Source: a virus. From it: a stretch of 33,156 bases of DNA. Of this stretch, positions 1,581 to 32,364 are shown one piece after another (within the stretch, counting starts at the first letter, position 1; each line of letters opens with the position of its first letter). Position numbers and translations under genes: made by a program. The stretch lies in the IMG/VR virus record IMGVR_UViG_3300037042_003829, positions 1 to 33,156 of that record, one strand, 5' to 3'. The notes beneath the pieces were generated by a model. That model was given only the letters and a program-made list of their open reading frames with translations. It was not told where the DNA came from and made no database searches.

Positions 1581-3442
1581 AAATAAAGAAGGAATTACTA
1601 TCTTTATATACAACTAATCTTAAACCCCCCTTTCAGGGAAGTATGAAGGAATGGGTCGAAGAAAATGTTATATTACCCCCTGCCTATGCTATACCCGGTA
1701 AGTTGAACCTTAACTTATCCCCCTATCTTCATCAACCCATGGAAGATATAACCAATCCACGTATTACACAGGTTAATATGATTACGGCAACACAGATTGG
1801 TAAATCATTATTATCAGAACTTGCTATTGTATATTGGGTAATCAATGAACCCGGACCTATATTTCGTATATTTAGTACGGATGAACTTAGTAAATTATTT
1901 TCAGAAACACGACTACTTCCCCTTCTAAAGAATACGGAAGTAATTAAACCGTTATTGGCACAGGATAGATTTGCTGCCAAGAAAAGTGGTGTCCTATTTC
2001 CACATATGTCTATTACCATGGGTAGTAGTAATACAGCAAAGGCACATGGTATGTCTGTTAAACATCTAATTGCCGATGAAGTTCATTTATGGGAACAGGG
2101 TAAATTCAATCTATTTACGGCACGAACGACGGCATTTGCGGGTCGAAGGAAGATTATTGTGGCATCCCAACCGAATGAATGTAAAAGTGAATTGGATGGA
2201 ATATATAGTAAAGGGATGATATATGAATGGCAGTGGTTATGTCCTTCCTGTAATAAAAGACAACCCTTCATATGGTCAAAGGAAAAGAAAGATGGTTCCT
2301 ATGCTGGTTTCAACTGGGATAAAGTTCTGAATGATGATGGAACTACCAACATTATAGAAAGTAGTAAAACAGGATGGTTGGAATGTGATGAATGTAATCA
2401 TCGTGTATATGATACCCCTACGGAACGTCGTTATCTTAATGAAACAGGAAAGTATATTTGTATTAAAAAGGATGGGGATAGTCAGATACATAGTTACACA
2501 TGTCCGAATTTCGTCAATGTAAACTTAACATTTGCTGCTTCCATAACACAATATCTACTTGCCAAACAGGTAATGCGTTCCACTGGATTAGATGAACAGA
2601 TGAAAATATTTGTTAATCAGACACTTGGTAAATTTTACAAGAAGGATGATAATGTTGATGTTAGTAAGATTGTAATGGAAATCTATGATAGGGAAAATCT
2701 TGATAAAGAATGGATTATTACAATGGGGGTTGACGTTCAACGTGTGGGTGGTGTGAAGTATTATGTTATTCGTGCATGGAATCGAAATGGTAATGAAAGT
2801 AGAAGATTGGATTTTGGGGTGGTATTATCCTTTGACCAAATTGAAGAATTACGAAAGAAATATAATGTTCCCCTACCTTTAGTTCATGTCGATAGTGGTG
2901 ATGGTGTTACCGCAGCGGAAGTATATCAAAACTGTTTAATAAGGGGAAGTGTATTAAAGGTTGGTAATAGTTTACAGTATATATCTTATACACCAACAAA
3001 GGGGGATGGTAATAAATCATCGTATAAACATCCAGATAATATAACAAGATTATATGCCCCTGTAAGTAATCAAGATGCTGGGTTTCCAGTCGGTCATAAA
3101 TTAAAGGGTATTCCAGCACCCCTTGTATTATTCAGTAATTTCAGTATAAAAACTATTTTAGCAAATTTAAGGGATAATCAGATTCCTGCCGTTACATGGA
3201 AGATTGATAGACCGGATGAAGAATATGATAAACAAATATATTCCGAAGGTCTGAAAGATGTTGTTGATAAGAAAAGTGGTATAATGACAAAGCGTTGGTT
3301 ACAGTTACATCAAGATAACCATTTCTGGGATTGTGAAGTTCTTAACCTTGTGGCAGCAATACGTGCCAATGTTTTTTCAGCAACAAAGATTAATGAAATA
3401 GATATAAAATCGATTATTGAAAGTAATCAGAAAGATAAATAA
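1577..3442 (+). CDS. Terminase large subunit, GpA family
   Basis: The 621-residue ATPase/nuclease of the DNA packaging motor, of the lambda gpA type and close to that family's usual length. Visible elements: an unusual Walker A, ATQIGKS, at residues 71-77; Walker B LIADE at 164-168; a CPSC...CDEC zinc-binding pair at 222-225 and 270-273; and C-terminal nuclease-type acidic motifs GVDVQ (384-388) and HVDSGD (437-442). It would cut concatemers and pump DNA through the portal. GpA-type enzymes usually make cohesive ends, so a cos site would be expected, but I could not locate one. Confidence 0.95.
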   Translation: MKIKKELLSLYTTNLKPPFQGSMKEWVEENVILPPAYAIPGKLNLNLSPYLHQPMEDITNPRITQVNMITATQIGKSLLSELAIVYWVINEPGPIFRIFSTDELSKLFSETRLLPLLKNTEVIKPLLAQDRFAAKKSGVLFPHMSITMGSSNTAKAHGMSVKHLIADEVHLWEQGKFNLFTARTTAFAGRRKIIVASQPNECKSELDGIYSKGMIYEWQWLCPSCNKRQPFIWSKEKKDGSYAGFNWDKVLNDDGTTNIIESSKTGWLECDECNHRVYDTPTERRYLNETGKYICIKKDGDSQIHSYTCPNFVNVNLTFAASITQYLLAKQVMRSTGLDEQMKIFVNQTLGKFYKKDDNVDVSKIVMEIYDRENLDKEWIITMGVDVQRVGGVKYYVIRAWNRNGNESRRLDFGVVLSFDQIEELRKKYNVPLPLVHVDSGDGVTAAEVYQNCLIRGSVLKVGNSLQYISYTPTKGDGNKSSYKHPDNITRLYAPVSNQDAGFPVGHKLKGIPAPLVLFSNFSIKTILANLRDNQIPAVTWKIDRPDEEYDKQIYSEGLKDVVDKKSGIMTKRWLQLHQDNHFWDCEVLNLVAAIRANVFSATKINEIDIKSIIESNQKDK

Positions 3443-3443
3443 T

Positions 3444-4115
3444 ATGAATAACTGGCAACCAAAAAAACTAATAAATGATGAATTGATACGTCTTGGAAAT
3501 CCAAGGGGGGATGGTGGATATGCTATCAGTAAATCCCTTCTAAATACAGTAGATGTATTATATAGTTATGGGGTGGGTGACAATTCAACATTTGAAAACC
3601 ATTTTACGGATATAACAGGTAAACCTACCCATCTATACGACCATACAGTAGATTGTAATCCCATATATAGTAATCATACATTCCATAAGGAAGGTTTATC
3701 TGGACTACCAACCTATAACTGTAATAATTATCTTAATCATATTCAACAGAATGGCGATGAAGGTAAGAATGTATTACTGAAAATTGATGTCGAAGGGTCA
3801 GAATACAACTGGATATATAATACAGATATGAAAGAACTTGGTAAGACTGTTAAGGGACTTATTATTGAATTTCATAATGTTGTGGAAACCAGTCTGGCAG
3901 GTTCCCTTAACCCCCTAAAAGAAGAATATAATATTATCCACTGGCATAGTAATAACTTTGGTGGTAGTTTCCAGAATATACCTGCCGTACCAGAAATATC
4001 CTTCCTACATAAAGATATTATCATTGGTGATTATGTTATGGGTGATTATCCCATCGTTGGTCTGGATATACCAAATAACGGAAAAGAAGAAACCTACTTT
4101 TATCGATATAGTTAA
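3444..4115 (+). CDS. FkbM-type SAM methyltransferase
   Basis: A 223-residue protein with FkbM-family hallmarks: a motif-I-like loop SYGVGDNSTFE at residues 41-51 and LLKIDVEGSE at 111-120, where the DxEG signature sits. Members typically methylate sugar hydroxyls in glycans or natural products. ATG 3444 follows the terminase stop by one base. The gene lies between terminase and the gpW-like gene, which are usually adjacent in lambda-like phages, so it looks like an accessory insertion. A second FkbM-like gene lies at 22745 and glycosyltransferases at 28895-32364, suggesting a shared glycan substrate. Confidence 0.85.
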   Translation: MNNWQPKKLINDELIRLGNPRGDGGYAISKSLLNTVDVLYSYGVGDNSTFENHFTDITGKPTHLYDHTVDCNPIYSNHTFHKEGLSGLPTYNCNNYLNHIQQNGDEGKNVLLKIDVEGSEYNWIYNTDMKELGKTVKGLIIEFHNVVETSLAGSLNPLKEEYNIIHWHSNNFGGSFQNIPAVPEISFLHKDIIIGDYVMGDYPIVGLDIPNNGKEETYFYRYS

Positions 4116-15201: not shown

Positions 15202-17829
15202 ATGTCTAAACGTGCTACATGTTCAGGAAGTAATCCCTTCACAATCTGTTCCCCCATAATTCTTGGAACAGGTAATGGTTCCTTTGCCTATAGTGGTAGT
15301 ATATTTGATAATAATACAAAAATTCGTGATAGTTCCAGTATAGCACCCTATCCCCGTGTTGATGTTACTGCCCTTGGATATGGTATTGCATCTTATGTAT
15401 CCCCCTATCATGGTCAAGGTTCATGGAATTGTAACAACTGGTCAACGGGAAGTTCTTCTTCTTTCATATCCCGTAATTCTTATAATAGTTCCGGTAGTTA
15501 TACATCTTCCTATTGTAGTGCTTCTTCCCGTAAAAAAGGACATAAACTTGTTCAGGCAGTAAAGCAATGGCATGGTAGGGAAGGATTTATGTGTCCAACG
15601 GATGAATGTTGGCAGGTAAGTAATAGATATTTAACAGTAACAAGACATACACAATATAGGGAAGGATATTTTACAGGTGCCAGTGGTTCTTATACGGGTT
15701 CCCTTACAGTAACATTTGATGCTACATCGGAACGGTCTTATACAGTTGATAGATTTTCAGGGGCAATAACAATGGGTAGTTGTTTGGATACTGCCAGTGT
15801 AGGAACATGGAATAGCACAAAGGCAGCAATAGTTCAAAATTCATATAATGGATTGGCAATGGGTATGGGTTGTTATGATAGTGCAAGTCGTGCTGCCATG
15901 AACTATGATAACGGGTGGCCGGAATACGGTTATATTGAATATCAATCCTGTAGTATATCGGAAACAGATATTGCCCTTCATTTTGAAACAAATTATAGTA
16001 ATGATTATCAGGAACATATAACTAATGTATCCCTTGCCGGTGCCTATAGTAGTTCTGTATTATATTCGGATGCCATTAATTTACTATCATTTCTACCATT
16101 AAATAATGATACAATTACACCGTGGTCAACCTTTGGATATAGGGGATTTGGTCCCTTACTTACAATGGATGAAGCACCCGGACCAGTAAGTCCTGATTTT
16201 GGTATAACTGACTGTACAATGTATAATGGTATATTATATACGGGTAGTGGTTCACAACCTGCTGACTGGGAAGCAACCCATCAATCGGAATGGAACCAAA
16301 CTGGATATACAACAGGTAGTAAAAACTGTACCTATTCGGGGGAAATACTTGGTAGAACCATTAATAATATAAGTAGTTCAACATTAGTTACATCTTCCTT
16401 TGACTGGCAACATGTTACATGGCGATGGGCAACAGTTGATGGTGGAATAACTTATGCATGGTTTCCAACTTATTATGGGGCATGGTCTGGACAGAATGTT
16501 GCATTATATGATACATTGGATGGCATTGCCGATACACGATGGACACAATTTACCAGTAATTATTGGGCAAGTTATTTACCAATGGGTGCATATATCATTG
16601 TTCCCAATGGGGCCGGTAGTATAATGGTTCAGAAATATGAAGAAATAAAAGAACCCATACAATCTTATAATTTTGCTAGACCATGTGGTGTTGATAGATT
16701 TCAACCGGATGTTTCCAGTGGTTCATGTATTGGTACTGGTTATAGTTATCCCGATATATTAACTAATACAGATTTAACGGGATATATGGGTGCTGGTGAT
16801 TATATATATGTTGATAGTGGAAGTATAACAAGGGTTAGTGTTGTTGACGGTGTGTATAGTGACCACATTACAGAAGGAACTATACTATATCAAGACCAAT
16901 CTTTATTTTCTACAGTAAGACCACGAAACTTTGTTGCACCTTTAAGGTGGTTTCCCTATAACTTCCGTAATACAGGAATATGTGGACGGAAGATGTTTAC
17001 TGTTGATGCAACGAAGAATACAAGTGGTCAACCCCTTACATGTAGTTCGGCAGATAATAATAATCATTATTTAATCACGGGGGATACTGTATATATCTAT
17101 AGTAATATGACCCAAAATGTTTCTGGTGGTTATAGAAATATAACAAGGGTAAATAGTCAGTCCTTTGCAGTTGGTGGAACAGTATGGTTGCCTACCATTG
17201 ACCAAGGAAGAAATTTCTGGGTATGTCATAGTAGTTCCCTTGGTATAGATGCCAATACATTAGATTATTATAATGATAAAGAAACTAAAGGGGATATTGT
17301 ATTTGTTAATGCTGAACCATGTGGGGTAGCAACACCCAATAGTGGATGTAATGTAATAAATCTGGGGGAAGATGGATTAAATTTTCTTGGTAGATATAGT
17401 GCTAGTATCAGTGGTTCATCCTATGGTTTATCATGGACGGGTAGTTGTGTAAAATATGGTCCCTGTGGTGCTTATTTTGGATGTAGTCCCAATGGGGATT
17501 ATCATTATGGGGCAACAACTTCTAGTTTTCGTGGAATGTTTCCTGTCAGTTCCTGTGGCAGTCAATGGTCCTGTCAGGGAATACAGATGGTAGTTGACCC
17601 CCTATTTCAATCTTCCAGTATATGTAATACAGTATCGGGGGATTGTAGTGATTATGTTGAACCCATAACGAATACAACAAGTATATCCATGCCATCTTTA
17701 CCACCGGATATATACTTTGATATTCCCATATCAGGTGCTGTTGGTCTTGGTAAGGGGGCATCATCCATGCCGAATTATCAAGTCCCTGTACCGTGGTCCC
17801 TTGATATTTGTGTCGAAGAACCCATTTAA
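15202..17829 (+). CDS. Large cysteine-rich tail protein, possible receptor-binding component
   Basis: An 875-residue protein dominated by Ser, Gly, Tyr, Asn and Thr with many cysteines (for example SSCGSQWSCQG, SVSGDCSDYVEP and SGCNVINLG), and little charge. No membrane segment is seen, so it is probably an extended beta-structured virion protein. Order after the tail-tip genes and before the fibre suggests a host-contact role. The cysteine content is unusual for a protein folded in the cytoplasm and could indicate metal sites or disulfides formed outside the cell. No family recognised. Confidence 0.62.
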   Translation: MSKRATCSGSNPFTICSPIILGTGNGSFAYSGSIFDNNTKIRDSSSIAPYPRVDVTALGYGIASYVSPYHGQGSWNCNNWSTGSSSSFISRNSYNSSGSYTSSYCSASSRKKGHKLVQAVKQWHGREGFMCPTDECWQVSNRYLTVTRHTQYREGYFTGASGSYTGSLTVTFDATSERSYTVDRFSGAITMGSCLDTASVGTWNSTKAAIVQNSYNGLAMGMGCYDSASRAAMNYDNGWPEYGYIEYQSCSISETDIALHFETNYSNDYQEHITNVSLAGAYSSSVLYSDAINLLSFLPLNNDTITPWSTFGYRGFGPLLTMDEAPGPVSPDFGITDCTMYNGILYTGSGSQPADWEATHQSEWNQTGYTTGSKNCTYSGEILGRTINNISSSTLVTSSFDWQHVTWRWATVDGGITYAWFPTYYGAWSGQNVALYDTLDGIADTRWTQFTSNYWASYLPMGAYIIVPNGAGSIMVQKYEEIKEPIQSYNFARPCGVDRFQPDVSSGSCIGTGYSYPDILTNTDLTGYMGAGDYIYVDSGSITRVSVVDGVYSDHITEGTILYQDQSLFSTVRPRNFVAPLRWFPYNFRNTGICGRKMFTVDATKNTSGQPLTCSSADNNNHYLITGDTVYIYSNMTQNVSGGYRNITRVNSQSFAVGGTVWLPTIDQGRNFWVCHSSSLGIDANTLDYYNDKETKGDIVFVNAEPCGVATPNSGCNVINLGEDGLNFLGRYSASISGSSYGLSWTGSCVKYGPCGAYFGCSPNGDYHYGATTSSFRGMFPVSSCGSQWSCQGIQMVVDPLFQSSSICNTVSGDCSDYVEPITNTTSISMPSLPPDIYFDIPISGAVGLGKGASSMPNYQVPVPWSLDICVEEPI

Positions 17830-17834
17830 CCCCC

Positions 17835-18140
17835 ATGTCATGTAACTGTAATAATAATAAATTAATAATACCTTCCTTATCGCAAGCAATGAATGGTATT
17901 GGTCCTGCTACCCAAGCAATCATGAATATAAATGTATTACCGATTTTAGATATTAATAAAAGAAGGGATATATGTCGTTATTGTGAATTTTCAACGAAAT
18001 CCGATGATGAAAAGTATAAAAACTATAATGGACTAACAAGTTATAGTCAATGTATAAAATGTGCTTGTATTATTTCCCTAAAGACTAAACTAGCAACGGA
18101 AACATGTCCCTTGGATAAATGGGATAAAAAGTCGGTCTGA
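17835..18140 (+). CDS. Cys-rich zinc-ribbon-like small protein
   Basis: A 101-residue protein. ATG 17835 (MSCNCNNN) was chosen over an ATG at 17808, which overlaps the previous gene more. The C-terminal half has ordered cysteine pairs, RDICRYCEFS...SQCIKCACIISLKTKLATETCPLDKW, a pattern I have seen in small phage proteins next to tail genes and probably a zinc ribbon. Its job is unknown; a virion or assembly role is likely from position. The stop codon TGA (18138-18140) lies in the loop of a repeated hairpin element. Confidence 0.7.
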   Translation: MSCNCNNNKLIIPSLSQAMNGIGPATQAIMNINVLPILDINKRRDICRYCEFSTKSDDEKYKNYNGLTSYSQCIKCACIISLKTKLATETCPLDKWDKKSV

Positions 18141-18173
18141 CCGACGTATAAAAAGTCGGAAGAACCGACGTAC
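18124..18173 (+). repeat. Tandem GTCGG-N5-CCGAC hairpin elements (copies 1a, 1b)
   Basis: Two copies in tandem. Copy 1a: ATAAAAA, then GTCGG (18131-18135), loop TCTGA, CCGAC (18141-18145), GTATA. Copy 1b: ATAAAAA, GTCGG (18155-18159), loop AAGAA, CCGAC (18165-18169), GTAC. Related copies lie at 25422 (+) and 26451 (-). Read on the - strand each is a 5-bp stem followed by five T, like a weak intrinsic terminator. The stem is conserved while the loop changes. Confidence 0.8.
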
Positions 18174-18182
18174 TAACCGTCA

Positions 18183-22121: not shown

Positions 22122-22748
22122 ATGAAGAAAATAGGAATATATAAAATCGAAAATGTGGTCAACAATAAATATTATATTGGAAGTTCAAATGATATTGATA
22201 TAAGGTGGACTGCCCATAAACGTGCCAAAGAAAAGGGCAACTTACTTCACCGTTCAATAAAAAAACATGGAATACAGGATTTTTACTTTGAAGTGCTGGA
22301 AGAATGTGCCGAAGCAGATTTGTTAAATATTGAACAGCAGTATCTTGACATTGCATTTCTTATGCCCCATATGATTTATAATACAAATCCCTTGGCAGCA
22401 TGTCCCCCCAACGGTAAACGTGGCAAATATAGTGCTGAACATTGTGCTAATATATCGGCAGCAAAGAAAGGTAAGAAACTTGGCAAACAGTCAAAGGAAC
22501 GTAGTGCTGAACATTGTGCTAAAATATCAGCAGCAAAGACAGGTAAAAAACAAAGTGCTGAACATTGTGCTAAAAAATCAGCAGCAAATAAAGATTATAC
22601 AATATATTCTTTTAATAATATCAATACAGGGGAAGTATTTACAGGAATACAGTATGATTTCTATACTAAATATAATCTAAACATTGGTAATGTAAATGCC
22701 CTTATCAAAGGCAAGATTAAATCCGTAAAAGGGTGGGTGTTAATATGA
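22122..22748 (+). CDS. GIY-YIG homing endonuclease with NUMOD3 repeats
   Basis: A 208-residue free-standing homing endonuclease. The nuclease domain has GIY at residues 5-7, YIG at 18-20, Arg28 and the catalytic Glu71 (NIEQQYLD). It is followed by three NUMOD3-type DNA-binding repeats (SAEHCAxxSAA at about 104, 128 and 145) and a C-terminal NUMOD1-like segment (YSFNNINTGEVFTG). The ATG at 22122 gives the canonical MKKIGIYKIEN start; the in-frame ATG at 22086 lies in the promoter. The gene has its own promoter, follows the fibre gene and overlaps the next gene by four bases (ATGA). It may drive spread of this segment among related phages. Confidence 0.93.
   Translation: MKKIGIYKIENVVNNKYYIGSSNDIDIRWTAHKRAKEKGNLLHRSIKKHGIQDFYFEVLEECAEADLLNIEQQYLDIAFLMPHMIYNTNPLAACPPNGKRGKYSAEHCANISAAKKGKKLGKQSKERSAEHCAKISAAKTGKKQSAEHCAKKSAANKDYTIYSFNNINTGEVFTGIQYDFYTKYNLNIGNVNALIKGKIKSVKGWVLI
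22431..22573 (+). repeat. Three exact 20-bp repeats inside the endonuclease gene
   Basis: AGTGCTGAACATTGTGCTAA occurs at 22431-22450, 22503-22522 and 22554-22573. The repeats encode SAEHCAN/K of the NUMOD3 modules. Exact identity at the DNA level points to recent amplification of the module, since synonymous changes have not built up. Confidence 0.9.
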
Positions 22749-23431
22749 TACTTGATTTCCATACAAAATATAGCAGTCAGTTCCTTTCGGACGGAATAAC
22801 AGAATCCCTTATAAAAGAACTATGGGGACATGATTGTTATAAAAAGAATGCTTTTGAAATCGGTGTTAGTCCAACAGAAAATAATACAAAGTTTCTGAAG
22901 GATAAATATTCATGGGCAGTAACACAGGTGGACGGTGCTTATAGTGTTCCCCATGAAAAGATATATCAACATTTTATTACAAAAGAAAATGTGGTGGGTA
23001 TTATGAAATCCTATGATACACCCCGTAATCTTAATCTATTCAGTATAGATATTGACGGTAATGACGTATGGGTTCTTCATGAAGTGTTGAAACATTATAC
23101 TGCTGATATAGTAATCGCAGAATACAATGTATCCTTTGGAACGGAAGATAAGGTAATGCCCTATGATTCCCAAGCAGTATGGTCAGGGGACAACTACTAT
23201 GGTGCCAGTATAACTTCCTGGAAGAAACTTATGGATTATCATGGTTATTATTTTGTAACATGTGATAAGGAAGGCGTGAACTGCTTCTTTACAAACCATA
23301 AACTTAATATAGAAAATGGATTAGATTTTACAAACGGTAATGTTGGTAGGTGGCCGGAATGCGGTAAACCTATGACAACTATCGATTCAGTTCTAAATAT
23401 AAATAAGAAAGAAATATATATATGCCAATAA
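22745..23431 (+). CDS. FkbM-like methyltransferase, second copy
   Basis: A 228-residue SAM-methyltransferase-like protein. FEIGVSPTENNTKFL at residues 37-51 resembles motif I, and NLFSIDIDGNDVWVL at 97-111 carries the DIDGxD variant of the FkbM DxEG signature; DIVIAEYN follows. FkbM-like enzymes usually methylate sugars. The start overlaps the stop of the homing endonuclease by ATGA, so both are made from the same message, and the pair may have arrived together. The last 10 bases overlap the next gene. Only distantly similar to the methyltransferase at 3444. Confidence 0.78.
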   Translation: MILDFHTKYSSQFLSDGITESLIKELWGHDCYKKNAFEIGVSPTENNTKFLKDKYSWAVTQVDGAYSVPHEKIYQHFITKENVVGIMKSYDTPRNLNLFSIDIDGNDVWVLHEVLKHYTADIVIAEYNVSFGTEDKVMPYDSQAVWSGDNYYGASITSWKKLMDYHGYYFVTCDKEGVNCFFTNHKLNIENGLDFTNGNVGRWPECGKPMTTIDSVLNINKKEIYICQ

Positions 23432-25188: not shown

Positions 25189-25234
25189 GACTTAATTCTG
25201 TTATAATTCCCCCCCCCCTTTGAAAGATTATATG

Positions 25235-25262
25235 TTGACTTCTACTTATTATATGATATATT
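25235..25262 (+). promoter_or_regulatory. Promoter of a possible ~65-nt RNA
   Basis: TTGACT (25235-25240), 16-base spacer, TATATT (25257-25262). Transcription would begin near 25269 and meet the terminator at 25298-25334, giving an RNA of only about 65 bases. Either this is a small RNA or the terminator is a controlled attenuator. Confidence 0.55.
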
Positions 25263-25297
25263 ACTATCATTACAAAAAACTGTTATATAGTAGATAA

Positions 25298-25334
25298 TCC
25301 CCTAGAATGAAAGATTTTCTAGGGGACTTTTTTT
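25298..25334 (+). terminator. Intrinsic terminator after late block
   Basis: TCCCCTAGAA (25298-25307) pairs perfectly with TTCTAGGGGA (25317-25326), followed by C and seven T. It ends the late transcript and any RNA from the promoter at 25235. Confidence 0.92.
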
Positions 25335-25347
25335 ATTTGAAAAAATA

Positions 25348-25375
25348 TTGACGTTTGGTTTTTTTGTGTTATACT
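25348..25375 (+). promoter_or_regulatory. Strong promoter of the structured RNA
   Basis: TTGACG (25348-25353), 16-base spacer, TATACT (25370-25375), with start expected near 25382. The -10 region TGTGTTATACTTAT (25365-25378) is identical to that of the homing endonuclease promoter. No start codon with a convincing ORF follows for 600 bases, so the product is probably RNA. Confidence 0.75.
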
Positions 25376-25421
25376 TATTGGTATAGTTAATAGTTAAAAA
25401 ATATAATTAAACACTTAATGA

Positions 25422-25450
25422 ATAAAAAGTCGGTCAGACCGACGTATAAA
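25422..25450 (+). repeat. GTCGG-N5-CCGAC hairpin element, copy 2
   Basis: ATAAAAA, GTCGG (25429-25433), loop TCAGA, CCGAC (25439-25443), GTATAAA. It lies about 40 bases inside the predicted start of the structured RNA, in the same orientation relative to the transcript as copies 1a and 1b relative to the fibre genes. Confidence 0.8.
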
Positions 25451-25878
25451 CTGAAGTCGAACATATATAATTAAAACAAGTCTGTAATTAACAAAACATA
25501 ATTAATAATTAAAAGTTAGAATATGGTTGGTATTGCTGTAGTGGAATTCTACAACCAAGTGGAAATCAGTGAAAGGATTACGTGGAAGTCGTAAACAAGT
25601 AACTGGTGGATTGTTCAAGACCGTTTAACAAATTTGAACACTAAGATAAGGGTTAATAACACGTTAACTGATTCATATATCAAAATATGAACCACATGAA
25701 AGTCGGTATTTCATGTATGATTATTGTAAAAGTATAGTAATCTGTAGGTCTTAGTAAAATGTTCTTAGACTAGGAAAGTAAGTTAGAACTTGACTGAAAT
25801 AATTCTAGGTGATACTGAAATAAATATAAGGTATTTATATCAGGACATGAAAGTGTTCGTAAGTAGTAGATTTTTTTT

Positions 25879-25902
25879 AAACAGTTAATTCTGTTTTTTT
25901 TT
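25879..25902 (+). terminator. Terminator nested in a long-range stem
   Basis: AAACAG (25879-25884) pairs with CTGTTT (25891-25896) around TTAATT, and T continues to 25902. The hairpin lies inside larger helices, TAGTAGA (25864-25870) with TCTACTA (25906-25912) and GTTC (25855-25858) with GAAC (25919-25922), so folding of the flanks could affect whether transcription proceeds to the gene at 25987. Confidence 0.65.
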
Positions 25903-25986
25903 GATTCTACTAACTGAAGAACTTTTGTGTCCTGAAATAAATATAAGTAAAATAATTAAGTACATAGTACAGTAAATAAGGATATT

Positions 25987-26250
25987 ATGAATAGAAAACA
26001 GGAAGAATATAAAAGGAATAGATATAAAGAACTGTGTAAAGAAGAAGAAATAGAAATTAAAAACTATAAAGATTCTTCCATTGGTAAATATGAATATGAA
26101 CATAACCGTAAGAAATATTACTATAACTGTGATACAATTCATGTAAAATATTTAGTAAAGAAACGTAATGTTTATGGTAAGGGACCATATGGAATTGCTT
26201 TCTGTCATAGAAAAAGAATACAGGGTGGATTTAATACTTGTCCACGATAA
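25987..26250 (+). CDS. Small basic protein downstream of the structured RNA
   Basis: An 87-residue, very basic and Tyr-rich protein (MNRKQEEYKRNRYKELCKEEEIEIKNYK...NRKKYYYNCDTIHVKYLVKKRNVYGKGPYGIAFCHRKR). It could bind nucleic acid. It follows the structured RNA by about 85 bases and ends just before a strong terminator, so it is either expressed by readthrough from the RNA promoter or from a weak promoter (TTGTGT, 17 bases, TAAAAT at about 25926-25954). No family recognised. A role linked to the RNA is an attractive guess only. Confidence 0.6.
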   Translation: MNRKQEEYKRNRYKELCKEEEIEIKNYKDSSIGKYEYEHNRKKYYYNCDTIHVKYLVKKRNVYGKGPYGIAFCHRKRIQGGFNTCPR

Positions 26251-26255
26251 TAAAG

Positions 26256-26288
26256 AAACCCTTACTAAATTAACAGTAAGGGTTTTTT
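26256..26288 (+). terminator. Terminator between convergent genes
   Basis: AAACCCTTACT (26256-26266) pairs perfectly with AGTAAGGGTTT (26275-26285), T continuing to 26288. It starts six bases after the stop of the + strand gene and 23 bases beyond the end of the - strand gene at 26311. The - strand reading has a poorer T-tract but could work in both directions. Confidence 0.9.
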
Positions 26289-26310: not shown

Positions 26311-26448
26311 TTACTTCGTAATCACATCAATAATCTGTCTGGCATGTTTCTTGGATTCTGCCAGAAAACATATACCATTTCCAATAACATAGCAACTGCC
26401 ATCATATTCACCACTGTCCTTGATAATGTAACCTTTATAGTTTTTCAT
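26311..26448 (-). CDS. Small - strand protein, only gene on this strand
   Basis: A 45-residue protein, MKNYKGYIIKDSGEYDGSCYVIGN followed by GICFLAESKKHARQIIDVITK. The pattern YKGYxIxxxxxGxYxV...GICFLAESxxxARxxID is that of small phage proteins with a beta hairpin followed by one helix, and the composition is that of a real protein rather than a shadow. It has a matching promoter 67-95 bases upstream (26515-26543, - strand) and one copy of the hairpin element directly before the start. It is divergent from the genes at 26698 onward, a layout common in phage control regions. Confidence 0.7.
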   Translation of the reverse strand: MKNYKGYIIKDSGEYDGSCYVIGNGICFLAESKKHARQIIDVITK

Positions 26449-26450
26449 AT

Positions 26451-26480
26451 TTTATACGTCGGTTCTTCTGACTTTTTATT
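26451..26480 (-). repeat. GTCGG-N5-CCGAC hairpin element, copy 3 (inverted)
   Basis: On the - strand: ATAAAAA, GTCAG, loop AAGAA, CCGAC, GTATAAA, ending just before the ATG of the - strand gene at 26448. One base of the stem differs from the other copies. Thus this copy also lies in a sense leader. On the + strand it reads as a stem followed by TTTTTATT and could stop + strand readthrough. Confidence 0.75.
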
Positions 26481-26594: not shown

Positions 26595-26697
26595 GACAGT
26601 TGACTTTTTTTGTAGGATATAGAAAAGAAAGAATATTATGATAAAGACAGTTGACTTTTTTTAAAAGTGTGGTAGGATATAGGAAAGAAAGAATATT
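26595..26697 (+). repeat. Tandem duplication of promoter and start region
   Basis: The stretch GACAGTTGACTTTTTTT, then GTAGGATATAG and AAAGAAAGAATATTATGATAAA, occurs twice in tandem (from 26595 and from 26646). The first copy lacks nine bases between TTGACT and TAGGAT, leaving a 7-base spacer that cannot serve sigma70. Copy 1 ends in a nine-codon micro-ORF, MIKTVDFF (26638-26664), which resembles the start MIKSLDSFF of the real gene. Confidence 0.8.
26651..26678 (+). promoter_or_regulatory. Promoter of the small membrane protein gene
   Basis: TTGACT (26651-26656), 16-base spacer, TAGGAT (26673-26678). Start expected near 26685, 13 bases before ATG 26698, with GGAAAGAAAG as the likely ribosome binding sequence. 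The same arrangement one repeat upstream has been broken by a 9-base deletion. Confidence 0.68.
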
Positions 26698-26865
26698 ATG
26701 ATAAAGTCACTTGATTCGTTTTTTAATATGCCTTGTTGGAATCGTCCCGTACCCGACACAAGGGAAGCAGGATGGGAAGGTATGGTAGGATTTATTTTAT
26801 GTGTAACAGTTGGTATCTGTATATTCCGACTTTTTAAAAATATTAAGAAAAAATATCTATTATGA
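26698..26865 (+). CDS. 55-residue single-pass membrane protein
   Basis: MIKSLDSFFNMPCWNRPVPD at the N-terminus, one membrane segment at about 30-46 (MVGFILCVTVGICIFRLF) and a basic tail (KNIKKKYLL), so probably N-out, C-in by the positive-inside rule. A promoter with a good -35 and -10 and a purine-rich leader directly precede it, which supports a real gene. It could be a holin-like or superinfection-exclusion protein; its size allows neither to be chosen. Confidence 0.62.
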   Translation: MIKSLDSFFNMPCWNRPVPDTREAGWEGMVGFILCVTVGICIFRLFKNIKKKYLL

Positions 26866-27026: not shown

Positions 27027-27133
27027 TTGACTTTTTTCATTCATACCGTATACTATAGAAAGATGGTGATAGGTCCAATCCCTATTCCATCGGATGGATT
27101 CCATCGAATAACATATAACATATAACATAAAAC
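27027..27133 (+). promoter_or_regulatory. Promoter and leader with palindromes
   Basis: TTGACT (27027-27032), 16-base spacer, TATACT (27049-27054). The ~75-base leader holds TCCATC-G-GATGGA, a palindrome with a one-base centre, flanked by a second TTCCATCG, and a run of ACATATA repeats just before ATG 27134. The palindrome lies where an operator or a leader hairpin could act. Confidence 0.7.
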
Positions 27134-27682
27134 ATGAAAAATAGAACATTGTCAGACATTCAACTGGAACACAACCTGTATAGGTTCATGATGACTTCCA
27201 AACATAACTTCCTTCACATGGATAACACAGTGATTAACTGTCACTTCCAGACACTTATCTACGAAGGACTAACCCCCGAAGTGAAAAATATGGATACCAT
27301 TAAGGTATGGATATTTGAACTTCCAAGGGGGATAAATGGACTTACTACCACTTCCAATATTAATGATGACATGGAAGAAGAAGTTTTCTGTCTGTTAATC
27401 AATGAACATTTTCGTACAATTGTTGAAAGGATTAAGATTAAACACGATGACTGGAAGGATACATACAAACTAAAAGTTTTGGAAAGTCAGGTTGTAAAAA
27501 CGATGGAATCCATTCGACCCATCCTAAAGGTATCAACGTCTGTCATTAAAAAGGATGGGGTCATATATAAGAATCCCCCCATCAATATTATAAAATACAA
27601 GTGGAATGTGAAAAATGTTCGGACGAATCTTCTGAATCTTCGTAAGGAAGATAATCAAAATCCCCTTTACCAGTTGACATAA
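27134..27682 (+). CDS. Hypothetical protein with its own promoter
   Basis: A 182-residue protein of unknown function. The first half is mixed alpha/beta (FMMTSKHNFLHMDNTVINCHFQTLIYEGLTPEVKNMDTIKVWIFELP); residues about 75-110 are acidic and helical; the C-terminus is basic (KYKWNVKNVRTNLLNLRKEDNQ). It has a strong promoter and a strong terminator of its own, so it is a single-gene unit, which in phages is common for early or regulatory genes. No motif for replication, lysis or DNA binding is recognised. Confidence 0.72.
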   Translation: MKNRTLSDIQLEHNLYRFMMTSKHNFLHMDNTVINCHFQTLIYEGLTPEVKNMDTIKVWIFELPRGINGLTTTSNINDDMEEEVFCLLINEHFRTIVERIKIKHDDWKDTYKLKVLESQVVKTMESIRPILKVSTSVIKKDGVIYKNPPINIIKYKWNVKNVRTNLLNLRKEDNQNPLYQLT

Positions 27683-27796: not shown

Positions 27797-27833
27797 TTGA
27801 CTTTTTGCTAGATACCCCTATACTTATTTGGAT
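27797..27833 (+). promoter_or_regulatory. Promoter of a two-gene unit, nearly leaderless
   Basis: TTGACT (27797-27802), 16-base spacer, TATACT (27819-27824), then nine bases to ATG 27834. Transcription would start within two or three bases of the start codon. Confidence 0.72.
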
Positions 27834-28894: not shown

Positions 28895-30166
28895 ATGATA
28901 ACAAACAAAACAATTTTAATCGTTGGTGATTCTGTAATACATTCAAGTGGTGTTGGAAATCAATTACGACATGTATCACGTAAATTAATTCAGAATGGCA
29001 ATAAAGTAATAACCATTGGTGTAATCAATGATAAGAATATACCACAACCCCACATTCATAAGTTTGATGGGGGGGAAGAAGTAATGATTTATTATAGCAA
29101 TAAATATGATGATATTATGCTATACGACCATATTATAAAGACACATGCTATTGATTGTATAGTATTAATGACTGACCCCTATAGATTTTATAATTACTTC
29201 ACATACAGTTATTTATTTCGTAATAAACTTAGTGTGTACTACATTTCTGTATGGGATTCGGATTTAGTTCCCGTTGAAGGTGGTAAATATCATTTCAATC
29301 TTCCCCTATATGAATCCTTTGATGCCATTGGATGTATAAGTAAACAAACAGTTGATTTTACAAATAATGTTTTAAGTAAATCATTTCAGAATAATTTACC
29401 AGTCGTATCCTATGTTGGACATGGTAGCGATGAAAATGTATTTAAACCCTTAATGCCCAATGAATATACAAATGTAAAGGATAGATTGTTTCGTGGTATG
29501 AATCCATCATTCGTCGTAATGCTTAATAGTCGTAATCAATCACGAAAGAAAATACCTGATTTGATTGAAGCATTTAAATTATTTTCGGATTCCCTATCCT
29601 ATGATGAAAAAAGTAAGGTAGCATTACTATTACAGACCGAACTTAGTAGTGAATATGGTACAAATTTAGTGGAAGTATGTGCTGCCCTTGCCCCCCACTG
29701 TAATATATTCATTAATACAGACCGTGTACCTGAATATATATTAAATCAAATGTATAACTGTGCAGATGTTGTTGTTAATATAAGTAATGCCGAAGGATTT
29801 GGTTTAAGTGCGAATGAAGGAATGCTTGCCGGTAAACCACTTATACTTAATAATACAGGGGGACTGAAAGACCAAGGTAACGGTCCGTGGTGTAAGTATG
29901 TAACTAATCAACGTACAATAATTGGTTCCCCCCAGACACCATATTTGACAGACCTTAATGCTAATATTGATGATGTTGCTAGGAAAATACGGGAATGGTA
30001 TGATACACCCCCTTATCAACGAAAAGAACTTGGTTTACAGGGAAGACAATACTGTATCCTTAATGGGTTAACTGCCATCCAATTTTCAACGGCAGTTGTC
30101 GAAGGAATAACAAAAATGGTAGAATCCTTTGTTCCTATTAATAATTTCAATCTTTATAAAATATAA
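28895..30166 (+). CDS. GT-B glycosyltransferase, GT4-like
   Basis: A 423-residue glycosyltransferase. The N-terminal domain starts ILIVGDSVIHSSGVGNQLRHVSRKL, the acceptor-side loop typical of GT4 enzymes; a linker around GHGSDENVFKPLMPNEY opens the donor domain; the signature AEGFGLSANEGMLAGKPLILNNTGG (about 298-322) contains the EGFGL..nEgm segment that binds the nucleotide sugar. The enzyme would act in the cytoplasm on a glycan or virion protein. It is followed within three bases by a second GT4-like gene. Confidence 0.9.
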   Translation: MITNKTILIVGDSVIHSSGVGNQLRHVSRKLIQNGNKVITIGVINDKNIPQPHIHKFDGGEEVMIYYSNKYDDIMLYDHIIKTHAIDCIVLMTDPYRFYNYFTYSYLFRNKLSVYYISVWDSDLVPVEGGKYHFNLPLYESFDAIGCISKQTVDFTNNVLSKSFQNNLPVVSYVGHGSDENVFKPLMPNEYTNVKDRLFRGMNPSFVVMLNSRNQSRKKIPDLIEAFKLFSDSLSYDEKSKVALLLQTELSSEYGTNLVEVCAALAPHCNIFINTDRVPEYILNQMYNCADVVVNISNAEGFGLSANEGMLAGKPLILNNTGGLKDQGNGPWCKYVTNQRTIIGSPQTPYLTDLNANIDDVARKIREWYDTPPYQRKELGLQGRQYCILNGLTAIQFSTAVVEGITKMVESFVPINNFNLYKI

Positions 30167-30169
30167 TAT

Positions 30170-31381
30170 ATGACTAAATATACAACAATACTTGAAGGTC
30201 CGGCATTGAACCGCAGTGGATATGGCGAAATGACAGATTCCATTTTTGAATGTCTACATTCTTATCTTAAATGTGATACATCGATTAATGTTACGGGATG
30301 GGGTGCTTGCCCGAACCGAAGTTCGACAGAACCCCGTGATAGACTTATTGAAAGTAAAATCATAAGGGGTCAGAAAGAAGTACCACAACCTGACATATAT
30401 TTCGCTGTAACCATACCCCATTTAAGTCATGCCCCTGTTGGTAAGAAAATGGATATTAACTTTAGTGCTGGCATTGAAGTAGATTTTGTTTATGATAATG
30501 TTATTGATGGATTGAATAAACATAGTCTGAATATCGTCTGTAGTGAATTCGCAAGAACAGTATATGAAAACAGTCCGAAAAAGGTAACAAGTCCCATTGA
30601 AGTAGTATCTTGGTCTGCCAATACAGCAGTATATAAAATGACGAAGGAAACCTTACCAACAGTTGATAAGATGATGGAAGAAGTTGATGAAAAGGAAGCA
30701 TTCCTATTTGTTGGTCAGATTACCCATAATAATATATTTAGTGATAGAAAAGATGTCGGTAATCTATGTAAGACATTCTATGAAACATTCTGGCAGGAAG
30801 AAGTAATGCCTGCCCTTATATTAAAAACAAGTGGTATTAGTTTTAGTACAATGGATAGAAATCACTGTATGGAAAGAATACAACAATTGAAAAATGCAAT
30901 GGCAGCAGAATTGAAAGTGGATGTTAAAGAATTACCATCTATCTACGTTCTTCATGGTGAATTAACGGAAATTGAAATGAATGCTTTATATAATCATAAT
31001 AAGGTAATAGCACATATCAGTTTCAGTCACGGGGAAGGATTTGGAATGCCTTTACTTCAGTCATCCTTAAGCGGTAAACCTGTTATAGCACCCAACTATA
31101 GTGGGCATTTGGATTTCCTACCAAAGGAACGTGCTATATTGTTGGATGGTGAACTAAAGGAAATACATCCATCCATTGTGTCGGAATACTTTCCACCAAA
31201 GTCCAAATGGTTTGTAGTGGATTATAAGAAAGCAATGACTGTTTTAATGAATTTCTATAAAAATGATAGAACATTACATAATACACTGGCAACATTACTT
31301 GCTAAGGAAAATTCAGAAAAGTTCAATATGGAAAAAATGAAGTACAGACTGCATAAAGTGCTTGATAAATACATAAAATAA
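30170..31381 (+). CDS. GT-B glycosyltransferase, GT4-like, second
   Basis: A 403-residue glycosyltransferase. ILEGPALNRSGYGEMTDSIFECL at the N-terminus is the acceptor-side loop, and HGEGFGMPLLQSSLSGKPVIAPNYSGHLDFL (about 287-317) is the donor-binding signature with its EGFGMP core. It is only distantly similar to the preceding enzyme, so the pair are probably sequential transferases rather than a recent duplication. The stop is followed by about 115 bases without a clear gene. Confidence 0.9.
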   Translation: MTKYTTILEGPALNRSGYGEMTDSIFECLHSYLKCDTSINVTGWGACPNRSSTEPRDRLIESKIIRGQKEVPQPDIYFAVTIPHLSHAPVGKKMDINFSAGIEVDFVYDNVIDGLNKHSLNIVCSEFARTVYENSPKKVTSPIEVVSWSANTAVYKMTKETLPTVDKMMEEVDEKEAFLFVGQITHNNIFSDRKDVGNLCKTFYETFWQEEVMPALILKTSGISFSTMDRNHCMERIQQLKNAMAAELKVDVKELPSIYVLHGELTEIEMNALYNHNKVIAHISFSHGEGFGMPLLQSSLSGKPVIAPNYSGHLDFLPKERAILLDGELKEIHPSIVSEYFPPKSKWFVVDYKKAMTVLMNFYKNDRTLHNTLATLLAKENSEKFNMEKMKYRLHKVLDKYIK

Positions 31382-31496: not shown

Positions 31497-31706
31497 ATGA
31501 ATAAACTAAAAACTATAAATATTGATGGTATTGAATACAATCTTACCCCCGTCAAAAGACTACAAGTGGAAGTTGGGGATATTATTACTGTAATAGACCA
31601 TGTTGGTAATTCCAATAAACTACAGGTGGAAGAAATTGAATGGGATAATTTATGTGGTGATTATGTTAAGACTACCTATACCCTTATAAGTTATGAAAAA
31701 ATCTAA
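31497..31706 (+). CDS. Small beta-rich protein
   Basis: A 69-residue protein with likely beta-barrel or SH3-like plan (MNKLKTINIDGIEYNLTPVKRLQVEVGDIITVIDHVGNSNKLQVEEIEWDNLCGDYVKTTYTLISYEKI). The segment VEVGDIITVIDHVG resembles small RNA- or protein-binding barrels. It overlaps the next gene by 14 bases, so it is expressed with the third glycosyltransferase. No family is recognised. Confidence 0.62.
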   Translation: MNKLKTINIDGIEYNLTPVKRLQVEVGDIITVIDHVGNSNKLQVEEIEWDNLCGDYVKTTYTLISYEKI

Positions 31707-32364
31707 AATATCAATAAACTATGTTGTATTGTCCTGTCCAAAAGACAATGAAAAAGTGGTGGTATCATTGCTTCAATATCTATCAAAAAATAAAGATACT
31801 AATGATAACATATTGCTATTATTTGACGGTTCAGAAGATAATGTGCCGTCATGCTATAAAAAGTATGCCCAACCATTCTGTCACAAGTTGGATTACAGTT
31901 ATTCGGAACACCGCAATTACATTCTGGGGTTCCTTAAAAATGATTATTCGCTGTTTCTTGATAGTGACGAAAGAATACCGAAAGAATTAATATATAATAT
32001 AAAGGATATAATTAGTAATAATGACTATCCAGATTTGATTAATTTACCACGTATCAATATAGTAGAAGGCCTTACACAGGAAGCAGCAAAACAGTATGGT
32101 TGGTCAGTGACAGATAATAATATCATTCAATGGGAACAGGGTGATTATCAAACAAGGTTATTCAAGAATGGGATTGGTCTAAAATGGACGGGTAATTTAC
32201 ACGAAAGAATCTATACTGGTAAAAATAATACAGTATATACCTTAATGCGTCTTCCACAGAATGCTATCATACATAGAAAGACACTGGAAGTTCAATTGAA
32301 GGGTAATGAAGATTATAAGTCTAAATATACCCTATCAGAAAACCAAGGAAAACATATATGCTAA
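31693..32364 (+). CDS. GT-A glycosyltransferase, GT2/WaaE-like
   Basis: A 223-residue glycosyltransferase. LLLFDGSEDN (41-50) is the nucleotide-sugar loop, SEHRNYIL (71-78) and the metal-binding LFLDSDER (88-94; the DxD equivalent) follow the pattern RNxxLxxxxxDYxLxLDxDE of the WaaE/KdtX-like GT2 enzymes. The later WTGNLHERIYTG fits the acceptor part (xxxxHExxx). It overlaps the gene before by 14 bases and the next by 7. Confidence 0.85.
   Translation: MKKSKISINYVVLSCPKDNEKVVVSLLQYLSKNKDTNDNILLLFDGSEDNVPSCYKKYAQPFCHKLDYSYSEHRNYILGFLKNDYSLFLDSDERIPKELIYNIKDIISNNDYPDLINLPRINIVEGLTQEAAKQYGWSVTDNNIIQWEQGDYQTRLFKNGIGLKWTGNLHERIYTGKNNTVYTLMRLPQNAIIHRKTLEVQLKGNEDYKSKYTLSENQGKHIC

Follow-up and report, generated by a model that had tools for sequence, protein, structure and literature searches.

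Positions 25382 to 25944 (plus strand) of the phage DNA analyzed here, a virus record of 33,156 bases (the window), are best explained, if tentatively, as an orphan transcript of about 560 nt that is probably non-coding, is co-transcribed with an 87-residue gene, and is set off by a long hairpin at its 3' end. This candidate non-coding or leader RNA contains no ORF, lies in the largest gap of the window, and folds more stably than shuffled versions of itself (z -5.0). Its start is placed by the promoter, and the base of the long hairpin is taken as its 3' end. The promoter motif, the absence of an ORF, the direct repeat, the excess stability of the 3' domain, and the order of folding are computed; transcription, processing, and function are what we infer.

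The phage and its likely host

The window carries terminase, capsid, and tail genes, and the main phage genes all lie on the plus strand. The sequence before the ATG of the phage genes is A/T-rich and a Shine-Dalgarno sequence is mostly absent, a combination that is a known trait of the Bacteroidetes (PMC6847099). The glycosyltransferase encoded at 28895-30166 has its best matches (29%) in Flavobacterium phages. Because of this start-site pattern and these glycosyltransferase matches, the phage host is likely a member of the Bacteroidota. The phage has no known close relative, and a comparison of its capsid protein with annotated phages gives no match. Regions 28895-31381 and 31693-32364 apparently hold several glycosyltransferase genes, of which only that at 28895-30166 was compared, and two proteins (encoded at 3417-4115 and 22733-23431) look like FkbM-type methyltransferases when judged by eye.

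Promoter and transcription unit

The gap that holds the candidate RNA (25189-25986) is 798 nt long, about three times the next largest between main ORFs of the window (268 nt), and is conspicuous in a genome whose genes are otherwise closely packed. Within it, a strong intrinsic terminator (25298-25335, plus strand), an inverted repeat of the form CCCCTAGAA-loop-TTCTAGGGG with a T-rich tail, closes the upstream late operon and insulates the unit that follows. A motif scan of the window then finds a promoter-like site, TTGAC-N17-TATACTT, at 25348-25376 on the plus strand. The promoter proposed here by the initial annotation is well founded: the full motif occurs with zero mismatch only at this site and at 27797-27825, where its exact twin precedes another phage gene. 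The stretch is also free of ORFs, as had been reported, in that no long reading frame crosses 25382-25943 and no ATG frame of more than 25 residues lies wholly within it on either strand. A decayed gene in the region was considered and rejected; there are stops in every frame.

Six hundred nucleotides without a gene after a promoter are unusual for this phage because its other promoters (27797 and 26651) have short leaders. At promoter 27797 the start codon is reached almost immediately, and since it lies close to the expected transcription start, the mRNA may be leaderless; the related promoter at 26651 has a short leader. That short leaders are usual in this phage tilts slightly towards an RNA product of its own. 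Promoter-like sites of this kind, of the form TTGACTTTTT...TATACT/TAGGAT, are present at 26651-26698, 27027-27134, and 27797-27831, immediately 5' of ORFs. On the minus strand, within the candidate RNA itself, a promoter-like site with one mismatch to the phage motif (25730-25758) could give rise to an antisense transcript.

Behind the candidate RNA lies the 87-residue ORF (25987-26250, plus strand), which is probably part of the same transcription unit and has no Pfam or PHROG match and no known relatives. It is followed by a strong intrinsic terminator (26253-26288, plus strand), identified by a terminator scan. A terminator had also been proposed inside the candidate RNA. A hairpin, AAACAG/CUGUUU, followed by U's, is indeed found there (25879-25903, plus strand), nested in the long 3' hairpin, but it is weak: the stem is 6 bp with two G-C pairs (-4.4 kcal/mol), and it was missed by the same scan that caught 26253-26288. 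Because this internal terminator-like hairpin is weak and the strong one lies behind the gene, the simplest unit consists of the promoter, the RNA, the 87-residue gene, and the terminator at 26253-26288. Of the features of a standalone non-coding RNA, a promoter of its own and the lack of a reading frame are present at the sequence level, while the strong terminator stands behind the next gene rather than before it.

In the main rival explanation, the region serves the 87-residue gene as a long 5' leader, within one transcript from 25348 to 26253-26288, and its hairpins tune translation, stability, or read-through. Since no strong internal terminator parts the RNA from the gene, a leader is equally compatible with this anatomy. 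The promoter scans find no other convincing promoter between the RNA and the gene, the first strong terminator past the promoter stands behind the gene, and the 5' part of the RNA holds a repeat element that it has in common with the leader of a small minus-strand gene (discussed later). However, other phage promoters stand close to their genes, no homologue of the 87-residue protein was found to show linkage, and the refolding at the 3' end (discussed later) leaves untouched both the terminator-like stem and, judged by position, the gene's start codon. Taken with the evidence on both sides, a leader is a credible, if somewhat unlikely, account of the region.

Folding strength

The 579 nt that begin at 25382 fold with -126.5 kcal/mol, a value that beats 100 of 100 dinucleotide shuffles (z -5.0). 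The minus strand of the stretch is also better than its shuffles (-102.1 kcal/mol, z -4.3); the plus strand is the more stable of the two because its stems contain G-U pairs. These G-U-containing stems argue for an RNA over an element that acts at the level of DNA, such as a replication origin. A large intergenic gap with its inverted and direct repeats would suit such an element, but the stems rely on G-U pairs and the cumulative GC skew climbs steadily across the region with no turning point, leaving this explanation with very little probability.

The folding signal is unevenly distributed. When 160-base tiles covering the plus strand of the window, together with minus-strand tiles around the region, are compared, the minimum z of those tested (-5.0) belongs to the tile at 25782. 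The 5' 134 nt alone give a z of -1.1, and the middle domain alone (25516-25760) gives -2.2 (6 of 200 shuffles). For all 446 nt that precede the 3' hairpin, z is -1.6 and 7 of 100 shuffles are as good. The signal therefore lies mostly in the 3' hairpin (25831-25944), where the special nature of the sequence is clear; structure outside this hairpin is suggestive only. The initial annotation had described a dense series of perfect or near-perfect hairpins, but clean stems with 7 or more base pairs number 6, versus 4.55 (sd 2.1) in shuffles, which is not above chance for an A+T-rich sequence; in such a sequence, visible hairpins are weak evidence on their own. Its large structured RNA fares better in part. 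An RNA that is promoter-driven, probably non-coding, and partly structured agrees with the results, but the words "large structured" rest mostly on one 3' hairpin. That the 446 nt before the hairpin are not clearly beyond shuffles, that the minus strand also beats its shuffles, and that the searches for relatives found no homologue count against the orphan transcript as well.

These values bear on a further explanation, in which the region is mostly an unstructured regulatory or remnant spacer (as would be left, for example, when a gene is lost) that ends in one real hairpin and has other stems that arise by chance in A+T-rich sequence. The count of clean hairpins, which equals that of shuffles, and the modest z values of the first 446 nt and of the 5' 134 nt are what such a spacer predicts. 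It fits less well with a promoter of its own and an insulating terminator, or with a middle domain slightly above shuffles. In addition, the base composition differs from that of neighboring spacer sequence: G+C is 0.316 in 25516-25860, which is strongly G-skewed, versus 0.216 in the adjoining 5' spacer. A spacer is an unlikely explanation.

The 3' hairpin and its refolding

The long 3' hairpin (25831-25944, plus strand; about -40 kcal/mol) is nearly perfect, contains 23 bp in two runs (8 + 15 bp), and encloses inner stems. A 16-base repeat, CTGAAATAAATATAAG, had been noted at 25815 and 25932, and both copies are present on the plus strand, A1 at 25815-25830 and A2 at 25932-25947. Their identity is beyond chance, as an exact 16-mer repeat is unmatched in 1000 shuffles of the stretch (longest 15). 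Both copies are partners of segment B (25832-25847, plus strand), A1 in an early fold and A2 in the final fold. The mutually exclusive pairings that had been claimed are confirmed: 25832-25843 can pair with 25815-25826 or, when extended, with 25928-25943, and the extended B-A2 pairing belongs to a longer stem that joins 25831-25854 to 25921-25944. The two folds are unbalanced, the long fold winning by about 9 kcal/mol (-42.7 versus -6.8 plus -26.9).

Structure ensembles of growing transcripts, starting at 25764, indicate the order in which these pairings would form. The A1-B pairing has a probability of 0.74-0.99 until the transcript reaches 25927; with the end at 25933 there is an even mix of A1-B and B-A2, and from 25939 B-A2 replaces A1-B completely. 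Throughout these ensembles, the terminator-like stem at 25879-25903 stays paired in both folds. Because it forms in both states, the refolding does not control it. Consequently, of the switch-like 3' end described earlier, the two exclusive folds stand, but they amount to an order of folding that leaves the terminator-like hairpin unaffected. An attenuator was rejected, given that the A1/B/A2 refolding neither makes nor breaks this stem, and a ligand switch is not supported. The candidate resembles attenuators and riboswitch platforms in that one segment has two possible partners and can pair with only one at a time; it differs in that its folds leave the terminator stem intact and in that no aptamer is identified. 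In the folding model, a stop at the U-tract (25897-25903) would leave A2 absent and A1-B would persist, so the two folds could mark short and long transcripts.

For the orphan transcript, a sequence of events can be proposed. Transcription would start near 25382 from the RNA's own host-type promoter and would run on into the 87-residue gene behind it. During transcription, segment B would pair with A1; once A2 emerges, B would swap to A2, and the long duplex would close the RNA. This duplex might protect the 3' end of the RNA or might offer an RNase III-type cleavage site, and cleavage there would free the RNA from the mRNA that follows. In some molecules transcription may instead stop at the weak U-tract hairpin, in which case the A1-B hairpin would persist. 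For the RNA body, protein binding, a decoy, and assembly are candidate roles. RNase III processing stems are known in phage and rRNA precursors. Like them, the duplex of about 23 bp could part the RNA from the downstream mRNA, cleavage being a prediction here; unlike them, its first strand can also pair with an upstream repeat copy.

Predicted hairpins in the RNA body

Upstream of the 3' hairpin, a possible long-range stem, 25412-25423 with 25802-25811, would close most of the body (25412-25811, plus strand) with a pairing probability of about 0.5. A hairpin at 25525-25558 (plus strand) with a 7-base loop, TGGAATT (25542-25548), competes with one other local fold. The hairpin at 25565-25607 (plus strand), AUCAGU/ACUGGU with an inner stem UUACG/CGUAA and a 7-base loop UGGAAGU, is predicted with a pairing probability of 0.94-0.95. 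The seven-base loops UGGAAUU and UGGAAGU are presumably T-loop-like, a likeness that we take as a lead only. Further downstream, a five-way junction is predicted (25640-25755, plus strand), with a closing stem 25640-25647/25748-25755 and four predicted hairpins inside it (25651-25669, 25672-25691, 25694-25716, and 25719-25742). The stems of the junction are individually confident (0.86-0.98), yet the z of the domain is only -2.2.

In the hairpin at 25565-25607, 25584-25603 (GGAAGTCGTAAACAAGTAAC) resembles a conserved stretch of 16S rRNA, GAAGTCGTAACAAGGTAAC, and 25585-25603 likewise resembles the 3' part of that rRNA (AAGTCGTAACAAGGTAAC); for one 22-mer the resemblance beats 300 shuffles. The resemblance is probably chance and is not counted, because the 22-mer that was compared was picked after the fact.

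Searches for relatives and comparison with known large RNAs

Searches for homologues return the region alone. There is none by blastn of the DNA against phages and plasmids and none of the region by exact sequence patterns in viral contigs; exact patterns in genome contigs give 15 stretches, none of them similar outside the pattern. In a search of viral contigs guided by the major capsid protein, the terminase, and the 243-, 232-, and 87-residue proteins, the only near relatives are three contigs whose capsid (63%) and terminase (54%) genes are related. All three end in tail genes, before the place corresponding to the candidate RNA, and their weak DNA matches fall within coding sequence. The remaining relatives are distant terminases (≤28%), whose records contain no convincing match. 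A capsid profile finds nothing in genome contigs or in 395 genomes from the phylum to which a Flavobacterium genome belongs. The covariance model R1 (25562-25757) finds only itself among the loci and 395, 291, and 399 genomes, although for a model built from a single sequence this is weak evidence of absence. Rfam, applied to the window at the gathering threshold, gives no match, riboswitch families included.

ROOL and GOLLD form RNA-only cages. ROOL (Rumen-Originating, Ornate, Large) is a large RNA of phages and prophages whose function is unknown, and its member env-120 is 659 nt; many members of GOLLD exceed 800 nt and share a universally conserved 3' region; both RNAs are often found near tRNA islands (PMC12286853). 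The comparable size of the candidate (about 560 nt) and its phage location would fit membership in one of these or in another known family of large RNAs. The Rfam result speaks against membership, as do the ROOL and GOLLD models, which have no match in 25200-26100 up to E 10, and the 33-kb window, possibly a fragment, has no tRNA gene. We regard membership as extremely improbable. The likeness to ROOL and to GOLLD is therefore that of another large, phage-encoded RNA; it differs from both in having no Rfam match, and from ROOL possibly also in having no tRNA gene nearby. Furthermore, ROOL has a complex pseudoknotted structure, whereas the candidate is known from the predicted fold of one sequence. 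Even so, its mode of action may be that of a large phage RNA, though it is filed under neither name.

A stronger proposal is that the junction, the T-loop-like hairpins, and the refolding 3' end make up a defined three-dimensional object, and that the RNA founds a new class of large phage RNA from a probable Bacteroidota-phage lineage, unrelated to ROOL or GOLLD. This is quite improbable, and a new class cannot be claimed, as the searches gave no second member. The candidate is a well-placed orphan, one sequence without relatives, rather than a class. A further unrelated large phage RNA would help to separate the general features of such RNAs from the special ones.

A dispersed 27-base element

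The 5' part of the candidate RNA contains a 27-base hairpin element, AAAAAGTCGG-N5-CCGACGTATAAA (25424-25450, plus strand), that recurs elsewhere in this phage. The window holds four copies versus 0.05 expected, at 18126-18152, 18150-18176, and 25424-25450 (+), and at 26451-26477 (-). It resembles a dispersed regulatory repeat or a binding site. Each copy is in sense orientation relative to the probable transcript. The copies at 18126-18152 and 18150-18176 are in tandem over the stop codon of the ORF at 17808-18140. The minus-strand copy lies just 5' of the ATG of a small ORF (26311-26448, minus strand) that encodes 45 residues, MKNYKGYIIKDSGEYDGSCYVIGNGICFLAESKKHARQIIDVITK, on the strand opposite to the main genes, and has no confident family match. 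Read backwards, the element is terminator-like.
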